Origin: Pelagomonas calceolata
Taxonomy: Eukaryota > Sar > Pelagophyceae > Pelagomonadales > Pelagomonadaceae
Direction of reading: 5' to 3'
Length of the DNA stretch: 64,000 nucleotides
NCBI GenBank assembly: GCA_918797485.1
Contig: CAKKNE010000003.1
Coordinates: forward strand, 5,270,001-5,334,000
A model generated the notes under the pieces. That model was not told where the DNA came from. It did not search any database and was given only the letters and a program-made list of their open reading frames with translations. Positions 25,864 through 37,975 of this stretch are shown here, one piece after another. Positions within the stretch are counted from its first letter, which is position 1; every line of letters begins with the position of its first letter. The position numbers and the translations under genes are program-made.

Positions 25864-27762
25864 TTAGAACTCGTCCGCCTCGGCCCACGCCGCCCCGTCG
25901 ACGGCTCCCTTGAGGTCCGCCAGCCCCGAGAGTCGCTCGAGGAGGCCGGGGTCCGCGCCCACGTCGCGGACGAGCGCGACGCCCCGGTCGCGGTACGCCG
26001 CGACGACGGCCGGCGCGCAGGCCGCGCACCGGTCGAAGGCCGGTGTGGTTGGCAGCACCGTCGCGTAGTGAGTGAGAAAGCCCCGGATCGAGTGTGGCAC
26101 GAGGCCGAGGGGCCGGTTCCCCGGGAGGGGCGCGCCCGGCGGCGTCGCCGGGTCTGCGGGCGCCGCGCCCTCGCGGGGGTGGTGCAGGAGCGCGACGAGC
26201 AGCTCGACGGCGAGCGCCGCCGCCGCCGGCGCGAGGCCCGGGCGGGATACGGTGCACTGCTGGTCGAGCGTACGGTCGCGCGTCGAATTCGTCGGAGCCG
26301 CGACGTCGCCGCAGAAGTAGCAGCCGAGGCCGTTGCCGCCGTGGCCGTGACGCTGCACCACGAACGTGTCGAGGCCCAGCGCGACGTTCACGAGAAGCGT
26401 GCCGCGCGCCGCGGCGACCACGGTCGGGAGCCACCGGCTTTCGCGCGTGTCGGTGAGCAGGAACACGCAATCCGCGTCCGCGACGAGCGCGTCGAGCGCG
26501 TGCACCTCGGCGTCGGCGGCGTCGCCCGCCGGCGTGCCGGCGGCCGGGAGCGCGTGGCCCGGCATGGCGATCGTTAGCTTTTTTCCGACGAACGCCGGCG
26601 GCGCGGCGGCCGAGCCCGGCGCGATGCGCCGGAGCGCCGCCGCGGCCGCCGCGGCCTTGGGGGCCTGCGCTTTCGCGTCGTCGACCGTGTAGAGCCACTG
26701 GCGCGCCGGGTTCGAGTACGCCACGGTACCGCCGTCGACGAGCGTCACGCGCGTCACGCCCCACGCGACGAGGCTGCGCGCGACCGCGCAGCCCAGCGTG
26801 CCCGCCCCCAGGAGCAGCACGCGCGTCGCCGCGAGCTTTTCGACGTCGAGGCCCGGCAACAGTCGCCAGCGCATGAGCTCGAGGTTGAGCGCGGCCGCGG
26901 CGGTCGCCAGCGCGCCGGGGTCGGCCAGCGGCGCGAGGTCCGCCGACCGCGGGGCCATGCGGCCGCTCGCGTTGGCCTCCCAGCCGACGACGGCGACGTC
27001 GGCCGCCGCGCCGCCGGCGACGCGCGCCTCGACGACGCACCCGCCGCGGCCGCGGAGCAGCGCGATGCGGAACGCGCGCCGCTCCGGGAACCGCCGCGCG
27101 AGGAGCCACAGGAGGTTCCGCGCGGGCCAGCCCGGCGCGCCGGCCGCCGCGGGGTCGAGCACGCAGAACACGTCGCCGCCGGCCGCCTCGCGCAGCGGCG
27201 CGCGCGACGCGCCGGTCCACGCGAACGCGAGCGGTGCGCCCGGTTCGGCCGCCGCCGCGAGCAGCGCGCGCGCGGCGGCCGCGCCGAGCGCGTCGTCGAG
27301 CGGCGCCGGCGCGCCGCGCGTCGCGGCCGCCGCCGGTCGCAGCACGAGCGCGGGGAACGCGAACCAGTAGACGTACGCGTGCCGCTTCAGGTCAGCGAAC
27401 GCGACGACCTCGAAGGGCGCGAGGCGCGCCGGGTCCGCGAGCGCCGCGCCGTCGTCGACCGCGGCGGCGAGCGCGTCGCCGGCGCGCCGGAGCAGCGCAG
27501 CCTTATCGACGCGCCGGAACGCCTCGAGCGTGTTGACGACCGTCACGCGGCCCGCCAAGGCCGTCGCGCCGGGCGGCGCCGCGCCGTCGCGCAGCGACGC
27601 CCCGTCCAGCACGAGACGCGCGCCGCCGCCGGCCCAGTAAAAGCCCCGCGCGGGCCGCGGCGCGTCGTCCAGGCGCCAGTCGCGCAGCTTGCGCTCGGCC
27701 ACGGCCTGCCAGAACGCGACCTTCGGCGCCGACGAGAACGGGACGAAGCGCAGCGCGTCCAT
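25864..27762 (-). CDS. ATG7: Autophagy E1-like activating enzyme ATG7
   Basis: A single exon of 632 residues, close to the usual ATG7 length. The N-terminal domain starts LRFVPFSSAPKVAFWQ, typical of the family. The adenylation domain has the ATP-binding LLLGAGTLGCAVARSL and VTLVDGGTVAYSNPARQ. The catalytic Cys lies in RTLDQQCTVSRPG, and YFCGD plus CAAC are candidate structural Cys pairs. ATG7 activates ATG8 and ATG12 for transfer to ATG3 and ATG10. It has no visible intron, unlike most neighbours. Confidence 0.95.
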   Translation of the reverse strand: MDALRFVPFSSAPKVAFWQAVAERKLRDWRLDDAPRPARGFYWAGGGARLVLDGASLRDGAAPPGATALAGRVTVVNTLEAFRRVDKAALLRRAGDALAAAVDDGAALADPARLAPFEVVAFADLKRHAYVYWFAFPALVLRPAAAATRGAPAPLDDALGAAAARALLAAAAEPGAPLAFAWTGASRAPLREAAGGDVFCVLDPAAAGAPGWPARNLLWLLARRFPERRAFRIALLRGRGGCVVEARVAGGAAADVAVVGWEANASGRMAPRSADLAPLADPGALATAAAALNLELMRWRLLPGLDVEKLAATRVLLLGAGTLGCAVARSLVAWGVTRVTLVDGGTVAYSNPARQWLYTVDDAKAQAPKAAAAAAALRRIAPGSAAAPPAFVGKKLTIAMPGHALPAAGTPAGDAADAEVHALDALVADADCVFLLTDTRESRWLPTVVAAARGTLLVNVALGLDTFVVQRHGHGGNGLGCYFCGDVAAPTNSTRDRTLDQQCTVSRPGLAPAAAALAVELLVALLHHPREGAAPADPATPPGAPLPGNRPLGLVPHSIRGFLTHYATVLPTTPAFDRCAACAPAVVAAYRDRGVALVRDVGADPGLLERLSGLADLKGAVDGAAWAEADEF

Positions 27763-32616: not shown

Positions 32617-32790
32617 GTATCCTATGTAAGGCTGACTCAGGTTTGTCAGCTATGTTTGGTATCTTGGCAGCAATATCGTCACATCTAGTGGCTCGCTGCA
32701 AGATACTTTCTTATACTTGCTCGTGTCCCATAGCGCTCCGATTGTGAGAGCGCAGGACAAAGGAGCAAGAATTTTTGGAGTGGGTTGTGT
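32617..32790. repeat. Dispersed repeat module 2 (inverted partner at 36.95-37.11 kb)
   Basis: Matches the reverse complement of 36945-37118, including ttggtatcttggcagcaat and gagagcgcaggacaaagga. It precedes the short frame at 32817. Confidence 0.85.
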
Positions 32791-33595: not shown

Positions 33596-36500
33596 TCAAA
33601 CAGAGTCCACCCCCCCACTGGCAAGTGGAGATGAGGGCGCTGGAGCTTCGGCGGCGCCGGCGGCGCGCGACCGCTTGGCGGCGGGCGCGGCGAAGACCCC
33701 TGCGCACTCGAGCATGAGCGCGTCCTCGAGCGCGTCGGGCGGCGGGAGCCGCGGCTCGAAGCGGGCCGGCCGCGCGGACCCCGCGGCGCCGTCGCTGGAC
33801 GCGCCGCCGGCGTCGGACGCCTCGCCCGACGCGTCGAGCGCCGCGTCGAGGCGCTCGGCCGCCTCGGCGGCGACGCGCGTCGACATTTCGAGGAGCGACG
33901 AGACGCGGAGCGGCTTGGCCTCGAAGGCGTCGGCGCCGCTGCGGAGCGCGCCGTCGCGCCGCTGCGGCTCGGCCGAGACGGCGCAGACGCGCTGCGGCCG
34001 GACGCCGGCGGGGGCATCGCGCTCCCACGCGCGGAGTTCCCGCGTGCTTCGCCAGCCGTCCATGACGGGCATCTCGAGGTCCATGATGACGAGGTCGTAG
34101 GGCGTGCGGCGCATGCACACGAGGGCCTCGCGGCCGTCCCGCGCGGCGTCGACGAGGAACCCCGCGTTCTCGAAGCTCCGCCTCAAGAGGCGCCGCGTCG
34201 TCTCGGAGTCGTCGACGACCAGCGTCCGCCGCGTGAGCCAGTCGCCGCGCTCCTGCATGCCGTAGTACCGCAGCTGGCGGAGGCGCACGAGGACGTCGCG
34301 GAGCGCGTCGAAGCGCGCCGCCGGGTCGGCGCACGCCGCGCGCGCGGCGAGGTCCGCGCGCAGCCGCGCGGCGAGCCGCGGGAACGCGTCGACGCGCGGC
34401 GTCGCCCCGTCGAGCGCGCGTCGCTCGCCGGCGCCCGGCGGCCGCGGCAGCGCCGCCGCCCGAGGCGGCGCGTCGACGCCCTCGTCGAAGTCGCGCGGCG
34501 GCGCGGCGCAGAAGAAGAAGCGGTAGAGCTCCTTGAGCTCGTCGAGGTCGAACGGCAGCCGCGCGACGTTGGCCAGGAGCTGGAGCTGGCGCCGCCGGCG
34601 CGCGTCGTCGCTCGGCTCGCCGGCGCCGCCGCGCGCGGCCGCCGCCGGCGCCGCGACGAGCGCGCCGAGGTTCGGCAGGAGCGCGGCGTTGCTCAGCTCG
34701 GCGACGCCGCCGCCGCCGACGCCGAGCGCGGCGAGGCCGCGGCCCAGCGCGACGCCGCCGAGCTCGGCGAGGCGGCCGTTCGCCGCGACGCCCGCGCAGA
34801 CGTGGCTCGCGCCGACGCCGCTCGCCGCGATCGTGCCGCGGAGGTCGACGCGCGCGAGCGCCGGCGCCTGCGCGAGCGCGCACGCGACGGCGCGCGCCGC
34901 CGCCGTGCCGACGGGCGAGCCGCGGATCGACAGCGACTCGAGCGTCGCGTGCGTCGCGACGGCGGCCATGAGGCCCTGCACGACGGCGCCGTCGAGCCCG
35001 GCGTCGTCGACCTGCAGCGACCGCAGCGCCGGCGCGGCGCCGCAGCGCATCGCGTGCGCGAAGTACCGCGCGGCGTGCGCGGCGCCGCCGCCGCCGAGCC
35101 GGAGCTCCAAAAGCCGCGGCGCCGCGCGGACCGCCACCGCCGGCGGCAGCGCGACGCGATGCAGCGCGAGCGGTTCCACCGGCGTCGCCGCGGCCGCGAC
35201 GGCCGGCGCTCGGTCGCCGGCGGCGCGCGCGTCGCCGTCGCCGACCCAGACCGCCGAGAGCTCGCGGCTGCCGACGCCGACGGCGCCGACGCGCGCCGCG
35301 CGCGCGGCCGCGGACGACGCCGCGTCGCGCGGCGCGGCGCGCGCGAGTCCGACGGCGTCGGCGACGCGGTGCGCCTCGTCCTCGTCCGACGCGTCGCCGC
35401 CGGCGCCGCCGCCGGCGACGGCGCAGTGGAGCGCCTCGACGGACGCGGCGGCGACGTCGGCGACGAGGCGCGCGACGCACGCGTCCGAGAGGCGGTTGCC
35501 GTTGAGGCGCAGCACGCGGAGCGTCCGGTTGCCGCGCGCCTCCGAGAGGACCGCGCCGAGCGCGCCCGCGCCGCTCGCGCCGACGCGGCACGCGTCGAGC
35601 GACAGGACCTCGAGGGCGCCGTTCGTCCGCAGGGCCGCCGCGAGCGCCACGGCGCCGCGCGACCCGACGCGGCCGTTCTCGGAGAGGTCGAGCTCGCGGA
35701 GGCCCGCCGGCGCCGGGGGCGCCGGCGGCTCGCCCGCCTCCGCCTTCCGCTTCCGCCGCGACGGCGAGCGGCGACGCGGCGCGAGCTGCGTCGCGAGCGT
35801 CGCCGCGAGCGCGGCGGCGCCGACGGCCCCCACGTCGTTCGCGCGGAGCGCCAAGACCTCGAGGCCGCGGCACGCGGTCGCGAGCGCCGCGCACCCGGCG
35901 TCGCCGACGGCGCACCGCGACAGGTCGAGCGCGCGGAGCCGCACGTCGTCCGGCGCCCGGGTCGGCGCGGCGCGGAGCGCGGCGGCGATCGCGCTCGCGC
36001 CCAGGTCGCCGACGCGCGGCGACCCGGCCAGCGACACGCGCACGCTCCGCCGCTCCGGCGGCGCCGGGCGTCCGGCGCGCCGCGCCTCGGCGCGCGCGAC
36101 GCGACGCGCGTCGCCGCGCGTCTGCGCCGCGAAGAGCCACGCGACGGCCGCGGCCTCGCCGGAGTGCACGCCCGCCAGGACGTACGCCGCGTCGTCCGCG
36201 TCGACCGCGGGGTCGTCGCTCCGGCGGAGCTCGAGGGGCGTCACCGGCGACCCGGCGACGGCCGACGCCTGGGCTCCGCGGACGGGCAGCTCGATGACCA
36301 CCGCGTCGTCGCCGCGGTTGATCCACGTCGCGACGCACCGCGCGGGCGACATGGCCACCGGCGGCGCCGCGGACCAGCGGTGGAAGTGCGGCATGCTCGT
36401 GGCCTCGCCGCGCCGCAGGTCGTCGATCGACCGCACGAGGAACCCCGGCCGCACGCACCCGACGCGGCTCAGGTAGCTCTCGCCCACGGCGACGGGCGCG

Positions 36501-36640
36501 GTCGCGGCGTCGCTGGCGCCCGGCGCCTCGTCGCGGCGCGGCCGGGCGAGCGCGAGCTCGACGAACGCCGCGACGCGCAGCTGGCCGTCGAGGCGGTAGA
36601 GGACGCCGCCGGCGCCCGAGGTGCCGGGCGTCGTCGCCAT
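33596..36640 (-). CDS. LRR protein with C-terminal response-regulator receiver domain
   Basis: One exon of 1014 residues. Residues about 1-190 are a mixed N-terminal region. Then come ribonuclease-inhibitor-type leucine-rich repeats, about 200-600 (RLRALDLSRCAVGDAGCAAL, GLRELDLSENGRVGSRGA, TLRVLRLNGNRLSD). A helical linker with DELKELYRFFFCAAPP follows. Residues about 790-920 are a receiver (REC) domain: RTLVVDDSETTRRLL (acidic pair), DLVIMDLEMPVMDGW (phospho-acceptor Asp), CAVSAEPQ (Ser/Thr switch) and FEAKPLRV (conserved Lys). All catalytic residues of a phosphorelay receiver are present. No histidine kinase or DNA-binding output domain is visible in the chain, so the LRR part may be the output or the partner platform (inference). 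Confidence 0.88.
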   Translation of the reverse strand: MATTPGTSGAGGVLYRLDGQLRVAAFVELALARPRRDEAPGASDAATAPVAVGESYLSRVGCVRPGFLVRSIDDLRRGEATSMPHFHRWSAAPPVAMSPARCVATWINRGDDAVVIELPVRGAQASAVAGSPVTPLELRRSDDPAVDADDAAYVLAGVHSGEAAAVAWLFAAQTRGDARRVARAEARRAGRPAPPERRSVRVSLAGSPRVGDLGASAIAAALRAAPTRAPDDVRLRALDLSRCAVGDAGCAALATACRGLEVLALRANDVGAVGAAALAATLATQLAPRRRSPSRRKRKAEAGEPPAPPAPAGLRELDLSENGRVGSRGAVALAAALRTNGALEVLSLDACRVGASGAGALGAVLSEARGNRTLRVLRLNGNRLSDACVARLVADVAAASVEALHCAVAGGGAGGDASDEDEAHRVADAVGLARAAPRDAASSAAARAARVGAVGVGSRELSAVWVGDGDARAAGDRAPAVAAAATPVEPLALHRVALPPAVAVRAAPRLLELRLGGGGAAHAARYFAHAMRCGAAPALRSLQVDDAGLDGAVVQGLMAAVATHATLESLSIRGSPVGTAAARAVACALAQAPALARVDLRGTIAASGVGASHVCAGVAANGRLAELGGVALGRGLAALGVGGGGVAELSNAALLPNLGALVAAPAAAARGGAGEPSDDARRRRQLQLLANVARLPFDLDELKELYRFFFCAAPPRDFDEGVDAPPRAAALPRPPGAGERRALDGATPRVDAFPRLAARLRADLAARAACADPAARFDALRDVLVRLRQLRYYGMQERGDWLTRRTLVVDDSETTRRLLRRSFENAGFLVDAARDGREALVCMRRTPYDLVIMDLEMPVMDGWRSTRELRAWERDAPAGVRPQRVCAVSAEPQRRDGALRSGADAFEAKPLRVSSLLEMSTRVAAEAAERLDAALDASGEASDAGGASSDGAAGSARPARFEPRLPPPDALEDALMLECAGVFAAPAAKRSRAAGAAEAPAPSSPLASGGVDSV

Positions 36641-36774: not shown

Positions 36775-37118
36775 CTACTCTGTCCGGGTATTTAACCAAG
36801 ATAAGTGAGACTAGGGTAGTGAAGCTAAGATAAAATTTTGGGAGATTTATAAGTGGAAAAGAGGCCGTTGCCACAACGGGCGCCAACCCCAGGGACCCCG
36901 GACCACGCGCCCCCGCGCCAAAACAACCAAGGGAGGGTGGGAGGGCCAAAATTCTTGCTCCTTTGTCCTGCGCTCTCACAATCGGAGCGCTGTTGGACAC
37001 GAGCAAGTATAAGAAAGTATCTTGCAGCGAGCCACTAGATGTGACGATATTGCTGCCAAGATACCAAAACATAGCTGACAGACCTGAGTCAGCCTTACAT
37101 AGGTTCGGGACAGCCCTT
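36775..37118. repeat. Dispersed repeat modules 1 and 2, side by side
   Basis: 36782-36924 is the inverted match of 30480-30632; 36945-37118 is the inverted match of 32617-32790. At 30-33 kb the two modules are 2 kb apart and in the other order. A frame continues to 37334 on the plus strand (ALTIGALLDTSKYKKVSCSE) and may be an element-derived fragment. Confidence 0.82.
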
Positions 37119-37490: not shown

Positions 37491-37975
37491 GATAATTCCC
37501 AGGGACGGGGCGTAGTACGCAGCACTGCGCAGTACTCCCGGACCGGGAGTACTGCGCAGTGCTGCGTAGTACCTGCGCAGTACTGCGGTTTTTATTTTAA
37601 TTAATTTTTATTGTTTAGGGGGGGTCCCGGACGGCGGGCCGGGGCAGCCCGGGGGCTACTATACGCGGTCCTGGGCTGCCCATCACATCCCGGGACCATC
37701 TCTAGGCCATGTCTAGGTCAATGGGCCAGTAAATGGAGCCTCGAATACAGTAACGGGCGTGGTATCGCCGAAAGTACCGAAATTTTGCCCCCATGGATAT
37801 TTCACAGGAACTCTGGGGATGGATGCAGCTCGGAGAGATACGTCGATTTCCGGTCTCAGACTCCACCGACTACGAACTGCCCTCAGACCCCTGCGTGGTA
37901 TCATAGTACCCTAAGCTGTCCGTAGTACCCGCGCGGTACTACGCGCGGTACTACGCCCCGTCCCTGATAATTCCC
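37491..37975. mobile_element. 465-bp TIR element with 10-bp target duplication
   Basis: Element 37501-37965 begins AGGGACGGGGCGTAGTAC and ends with its exact complement. GATAATTCCC lies directly outside both ends (37491-37500, 37966-37975), a perfect 10-bp target duplication. Inside, 37516-37541 and 37543-37568 are 26-nt arms of a perfect hairpin, and gtagtac/gtactac subterminal motifs recur at both ends. It codes nothing, so it is non-autonomous. TSD length points to the Mutator-like group (family knowledge). Confidence 0.92.

Follow-up and report, generated by a model that had tools for sequence, protein, structure and literature searches.

A Pelagomonas calceolata gene that encodes ribonuclease-inhibitor-type LRRs and a complete receiver domain

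The LRR-REC gene and its surroundings

The LRR-REC gene lies on the minus strand of the window, i.e. of the whole stretch of 64,000 nucleotides that was analysed (C3:5270001-5334000 in a genome of 32,445,274 bases and 8 contigs). The published assembly of Pelagomonas calceolata RCC100 (PMC9481584), 32.4 Mb in size, has six nuclear contigs besides the plastid and the mitochondrion. The gene runs from an ATG at 36640 to a TGA ending at 33596 as one open reading frame of 1014 codons plus stop, without internal stop or intron; at the given base composition, 1014 codons would stay open by chance with a probability of ~3e-4. As P. calceolata genes carry a mean of 0.45 intron (PMC9481584), the intronless gene is ordinary in this respect.

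The G+C content of the frame is 0.83/0.62/0.97 at codon positions 1/2/3. GC3 (~97%) is uniform, varying between 0.95 and 1.00 in all 60-codon blocks but the last (0.78), the LRR/REC junction included, and GC2 amounts to 47-72% where the frame crosses the junction. Sharp composition edges occur at the ends of the open reading frame only, the G+C-rich stretch coincides with it, and outside of it the G+C content is 51-54%. Because GC3 stays at 95-100% over the junction and the G+C content drops outside the frame, the LRR and REC domains are, on the DNA evidence, one gene and one coding unit. A REC domain placed in a separate transcript, the case which the original prediction had raised against itself, is consequently not favoured by the DNA sequence, in which frame and GC3 signature are unbroken over residues 661-840. 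It is highly improbable that two adjacent genes, or a decaying gene, have been read as one frame: long open frames arise more easily at extreme G+C, and long antisense frames (647 and 656 aa) are present opposite the gene, but the composition across the junction, the edges at the frame ends only, the completeness of REC and the 1014 codons without stop all speak against it. Judged from base composition, the antisense frames are shadows of the G+C bias of the LRR-REC frame.

The gene is flanked by inverted repeat copies (32621-32775 and 36948-37103), which are 98% complementary over 121 nt. They represent a dispersed repeat that has 24 genomic matches, mostly in C3 at 4.4-5.3 Mb and in C2. The gene was also considered as cargo of a mobile element; this was rejected, since the arms are copies of the dispersed repeat and two independent insertions are the simpler explanation. 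Furthermore, a near-perfect 30-nt inverted repeat with arms one base apart lies at 37512-37572, and an ordinary eukaryotic neighbour, an ATG7-like autophagy E1 enzyme, is encoded on the minus strand at 25864-27762 (ATG7_N E 1.7e-55, ThiF E 1.4e-33).

Domains of the encoded protein

A Pfam search of the 1014 aa, proposed together with the original prediction, returned Response_reg (PF00072) at residues 807-919 (61.9 bits, E 7.5e-17) and LRR_6 (53.3 bits, E 1.4e-14), both above the curated cut-offs of 30.2 and 23.4 bits, respectively; the remaining matches are weak LRR models. The predicted layout of a eukaryotic chain with ribonuclease-inhibitor-type LRRs followed by a complete C-terminal REC domain was thereby borne out in one uninterrupted frame.

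The receiver (REC) domain spans residues 804-925 (33866..34231, minus strand, as are all following features of the gene). Alignment with the conserved receiver columns reveals the acidic Mg-binding pair Asp810-Asp811 (34208..34213), the phospho-acceptor Asp854 within VIMDLEM (34079..34081), Ser889 (Thr87 of CheY; 33974..33976) and Lys909 (Lys109 of CheY; 33914..33916), so that every catalytic residue is kept, as had been claimed; F906 occupies the Y/F aromatic switch position. The whole chain contains 122 Arg and 5 Lys (positions 297, 299, 703, 909 and 989), and the only Lys within the receiver is the catalytic K909, a pattern in the sequence that suggests selection on the active site. A structure prediction based on an alignment with 20 other receivers (19 prokaryotic and one from the P. 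calceolata genome) yielded a CheY-like alternating beta/alpha fold with a core pLDDT of ~77-95 per ten-residue block, which matches solved receivers with Z ~20. The second-ranked structural match is a yeast receiver co-crystallised with Ypd1 (Z 21.3, rmsd 2.3, 135 aligned); because matches within 1 of each other are treated as tied, this rank shows only that the predicted domain is a receiver.

For the N-terminal region (residues 1-195; 36056..36640), neither a Pfam family (best E 0.24) nor, at E below 0.1, a further genomic copy was found. This region is followed by LRR block 1 (residues 205-405; 35426..36028), which matches the ribonuclease inhibitor 1dfj (E 8e-11) and radial spoke protein 15 (E 6e-10), with other axonemal LRR proteins also among the best matches. 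Two inserts interrupt the LRR region: the basic, nuclear-localisation-like RRRSPSRRKRKAE (residues 289-301; 35738..35776), called by its sequence pattern, and a low-complexity Ala/Asp-rich stretch without domain match (residues 406-500; 35141..35425). LRR block 2 (residues 505-640; 34721..35128) consists of divergent strand-helix repeats, assigned by their repeat pattern and a low-confidence strand/helix alternation. The linker into REC (residues 675-803; 34232..34618) ends in a predicted helix directly before the receiver (pLDDT ~55-75, low confidence in the whole-chain model), and the C-terminal tail (33599..33865) carries a KRSR pattern (residues 989-992). The single-sequence model of the whole chain is unreliable (pLDDT 37.8); of a continuous LRR horseshoe it shows no more than the strand/helix alternation.

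A flagellar or axonemal LRR protein whose REC regulates motility, e.g. under a rhodopsin-like kinase, is a very unlikely alternative. The matches to radial spoke protein 15 and its axonemal relatives as well as a rhodopsin-like hybrid kinase in the genome (see below) would fit such a role, but the ribonuclease inhibitor scores equally, ribonuclease-inhibitor-type LRRs are generic protein-binding scaffolds, and the sequence has basic nuclear-import-like clusters.

No HisKA, HATPase_c or other kinase model was found in the Pfam search, so the protein is not a hybrid histidine kinase; likewise no DNA-binding model was found at E up to 1, so it is not a B-type or transcription-factor response regulator. 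Both absences agree with the original prediction. The LRRs may instead act as the input, with ligand or partner binding controlling REC phosphorylation, as in the recognition role suggested earlier. LRRs bind proteins and often sense in multidomain proteins. In known response regulators, however, REC is the input domain, and the chain has neither a membrane-span-like window in a hydropathy scan (best 1.48) nor, inspected by eye, a signal-peptide-like N-terminus, nor NACHT, TIR or another immune-receptor domain in the Pfam search. We therefore consider an LRR input improbable, and a recognition role, taken as the sensing of ligands or pathogens, is unsupported, given these absences, the missing kinase domain and the basic clusters that point to the cell interior.

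A second LRR-REC fusion was not found in the P. calceolata genome, and viral contigs searched held no relative. All of the 70 prokaryotic relatives matched via REC or its immediate flanks, and their loci contained no match to the LRR block; conversely, 27 LRR_6 loci, found in 9 of the 23 bacterial genomes concerned, had no REC nearby within the ~1.5 kb on each side that the loci covered. No LRR-REC protein was found in literature searches aimed mostly at this layout or at stramenopile phosphorelays, and the main text of the P. calceolata papers examined mentions neither response regulators nor histidine kinases nor LRRs. The layout is thus unusual, as predicted. LRR and REC are both well-known families; it is their combination that was not found in the literature or the prokaryotic loci tested, and uniqueness is not claimed.

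Phosphorelay parts and the proposed mechanism

Histidine kinases, whose presence had been named as a check of the prediction, were found by a profile search of the genome, along with an HPt. As individual exons were searched, weak or interrupted members may have been overlooked, and the counts are a minimum. At least six receivers were matched: two in hybrid kinases (GAF-HisKA-HATPase-REC and rhodopsin-like HisKA-HATPase-REC, one each), three outside kinases (the LRR-REC protein being one of them) and a sixth, divergent and below the cut-off, in a hydrophobic protein (L006, G000:C6:1257402) that has a kinase-like stretch and no HisKA match. At least two HisKA matches were obtained, both above the cut-off and with intact His motifs in the two hybrid kinases. 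At least one HPt is present (motif HSIKG), its single-exon match covering positions 25-80 of the 84 in the model.

The rhodopsin-like kinase is a candidate histidine-kinase rhodopsin with an open frame of 859 aa on the minus strand (G000:C1:2316769-2319345; L020:325-2901), which holds Bac_rhodopsin (E 4.6e-9), HisKA, HATPase_c and a divergent REC. In its last hydrophobic segment, ETCTK provides a candidate retinal lysine (Lys341), and HEMRNP begins at residue 387. Histidine-kinase rhodopsins are discussed in a review on the photoreceptors of algae, which leaves Pelagomonas and pelagophytes unmentioned (PMC12558739). The nearest receiver in the genome belongs to a stand-alone response regulator at C2:5972916, with 40% identity over REC when two exon-like pieces are joined at splice sites read by eye. 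In both this gene (L003) and the HPt gene (L021), TTGATTTCCACACAG ends the sequence just before the frame reopens; this shared sequence suggests introner elements, located in the C2 regulator inside the receiver itself.

On balance, we regard it as probable that the LRR-REC protein is an intracellular response regulator in which phosphorylation of Asp854 gates an LRR surface; its location is probably nuclear, judging from pattern-based calls of the basic clusters. A hybrid histidine kinase of the GAF or rhodopsin type would autophosphorylate and pass the phosphate via its own receiver to the single HPt protein, which would phosphorylate Asp854. The alpha4-beta5-alpha5 face of REC would then change and, via the helical linker, alter the availability of the LRR surface, whereby a partner protein would be bound or released. 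This phospho-switch is consistent with the presence of one HPt, of two hybrid kinases whose His motifs are intact and of only two other non-kinase receivers, with catalytic residues including K909 retained in so Lys-poor a protein, with the predicted REC fold and its matches including the Ypd1-bound yeast receiver, with the unbroken GC3 over the junction and with the stand-alone nature of the nearest receiver. Against it stand the LRR blocks, which are divergent and fold poorly without an alignment, and the partial HPt match.

Alternatively, REC may act as a phosphate sink or competitor on the single HPt and tune the two other receivers, the LRRs setting only the location in the cell. Since the genome has one HPt and only a few receivers, these would be likely to compete for phosphate when all are co-expressed, but an LRR region of several hundred residues is not needed for a sink, and we rate this role as rather unlikely. 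In the most economical reading, a protein-binding scaffold carries a phospho-switch that receives its phosphate from hybrid kinase and HPt, much as in the Ssk1-type regulators of fungi. Only tentatively do we go further and propose a new class of response regulator, in which Asp phosphorylation switches an LRR scaffold as a main output of a minimal phosphorelay of two hybrid kinases (one rhodopsin-like) and one HPt.

To our knowledge, little has been learned about what eukaryotic phosphorelays act upon beyond plants, fungi and Dictyostelium. An LRR output, if true, would be a new mode of receiver action, and P. calceolata, the host of the proposed minimal phosphorelay, is a globally abundant alga. 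The parts are so few that reconstitution of the whole wiring in vitro would be feasible. The rhodopsin-like kinase makes a path from light to LRR conceivable in this alga of dim waters, which is a guess.

Comparison with known systems

Among known systems, the fungal Ssk1-type regulators resemble the LRR-REC protein as eukaryotic non-kinase receivers without DNA-binding domain and with an HPt upstream, the latter being proposed for the LRR-REC protein. Ssk1 differs in having no LRR and a MAPKKK as its output. The LRR-REC protein would accordingly work like Ssk1 without being counted as a member of this group, similarity of the REC fold being the only observed link to the family. Plant A-type and B-type ARRs have receivers that obtain phosphate from hybrid kinase and HPt, the route proposed here. 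B-type ARRs differ by a Myb-like DNA-binding domain, which is absent from the LRR-REC protein, A-type ARRs contain little beyond REC, and both lack LRRs.

On the side of the repeats, ribonuclease inhibitor, radial spoke protein 15 (RSP15) and RanGAP share the LRR type and are the best sequence matches, whereas none of them, as far as we know, has a receiver domain. Within the genome itself, the C2 regulator is close in its receiver and keeps the catalytic residues once the intron-like insert is skipped; it differs in that it has no LRR, its downstream part being without Pfam match.
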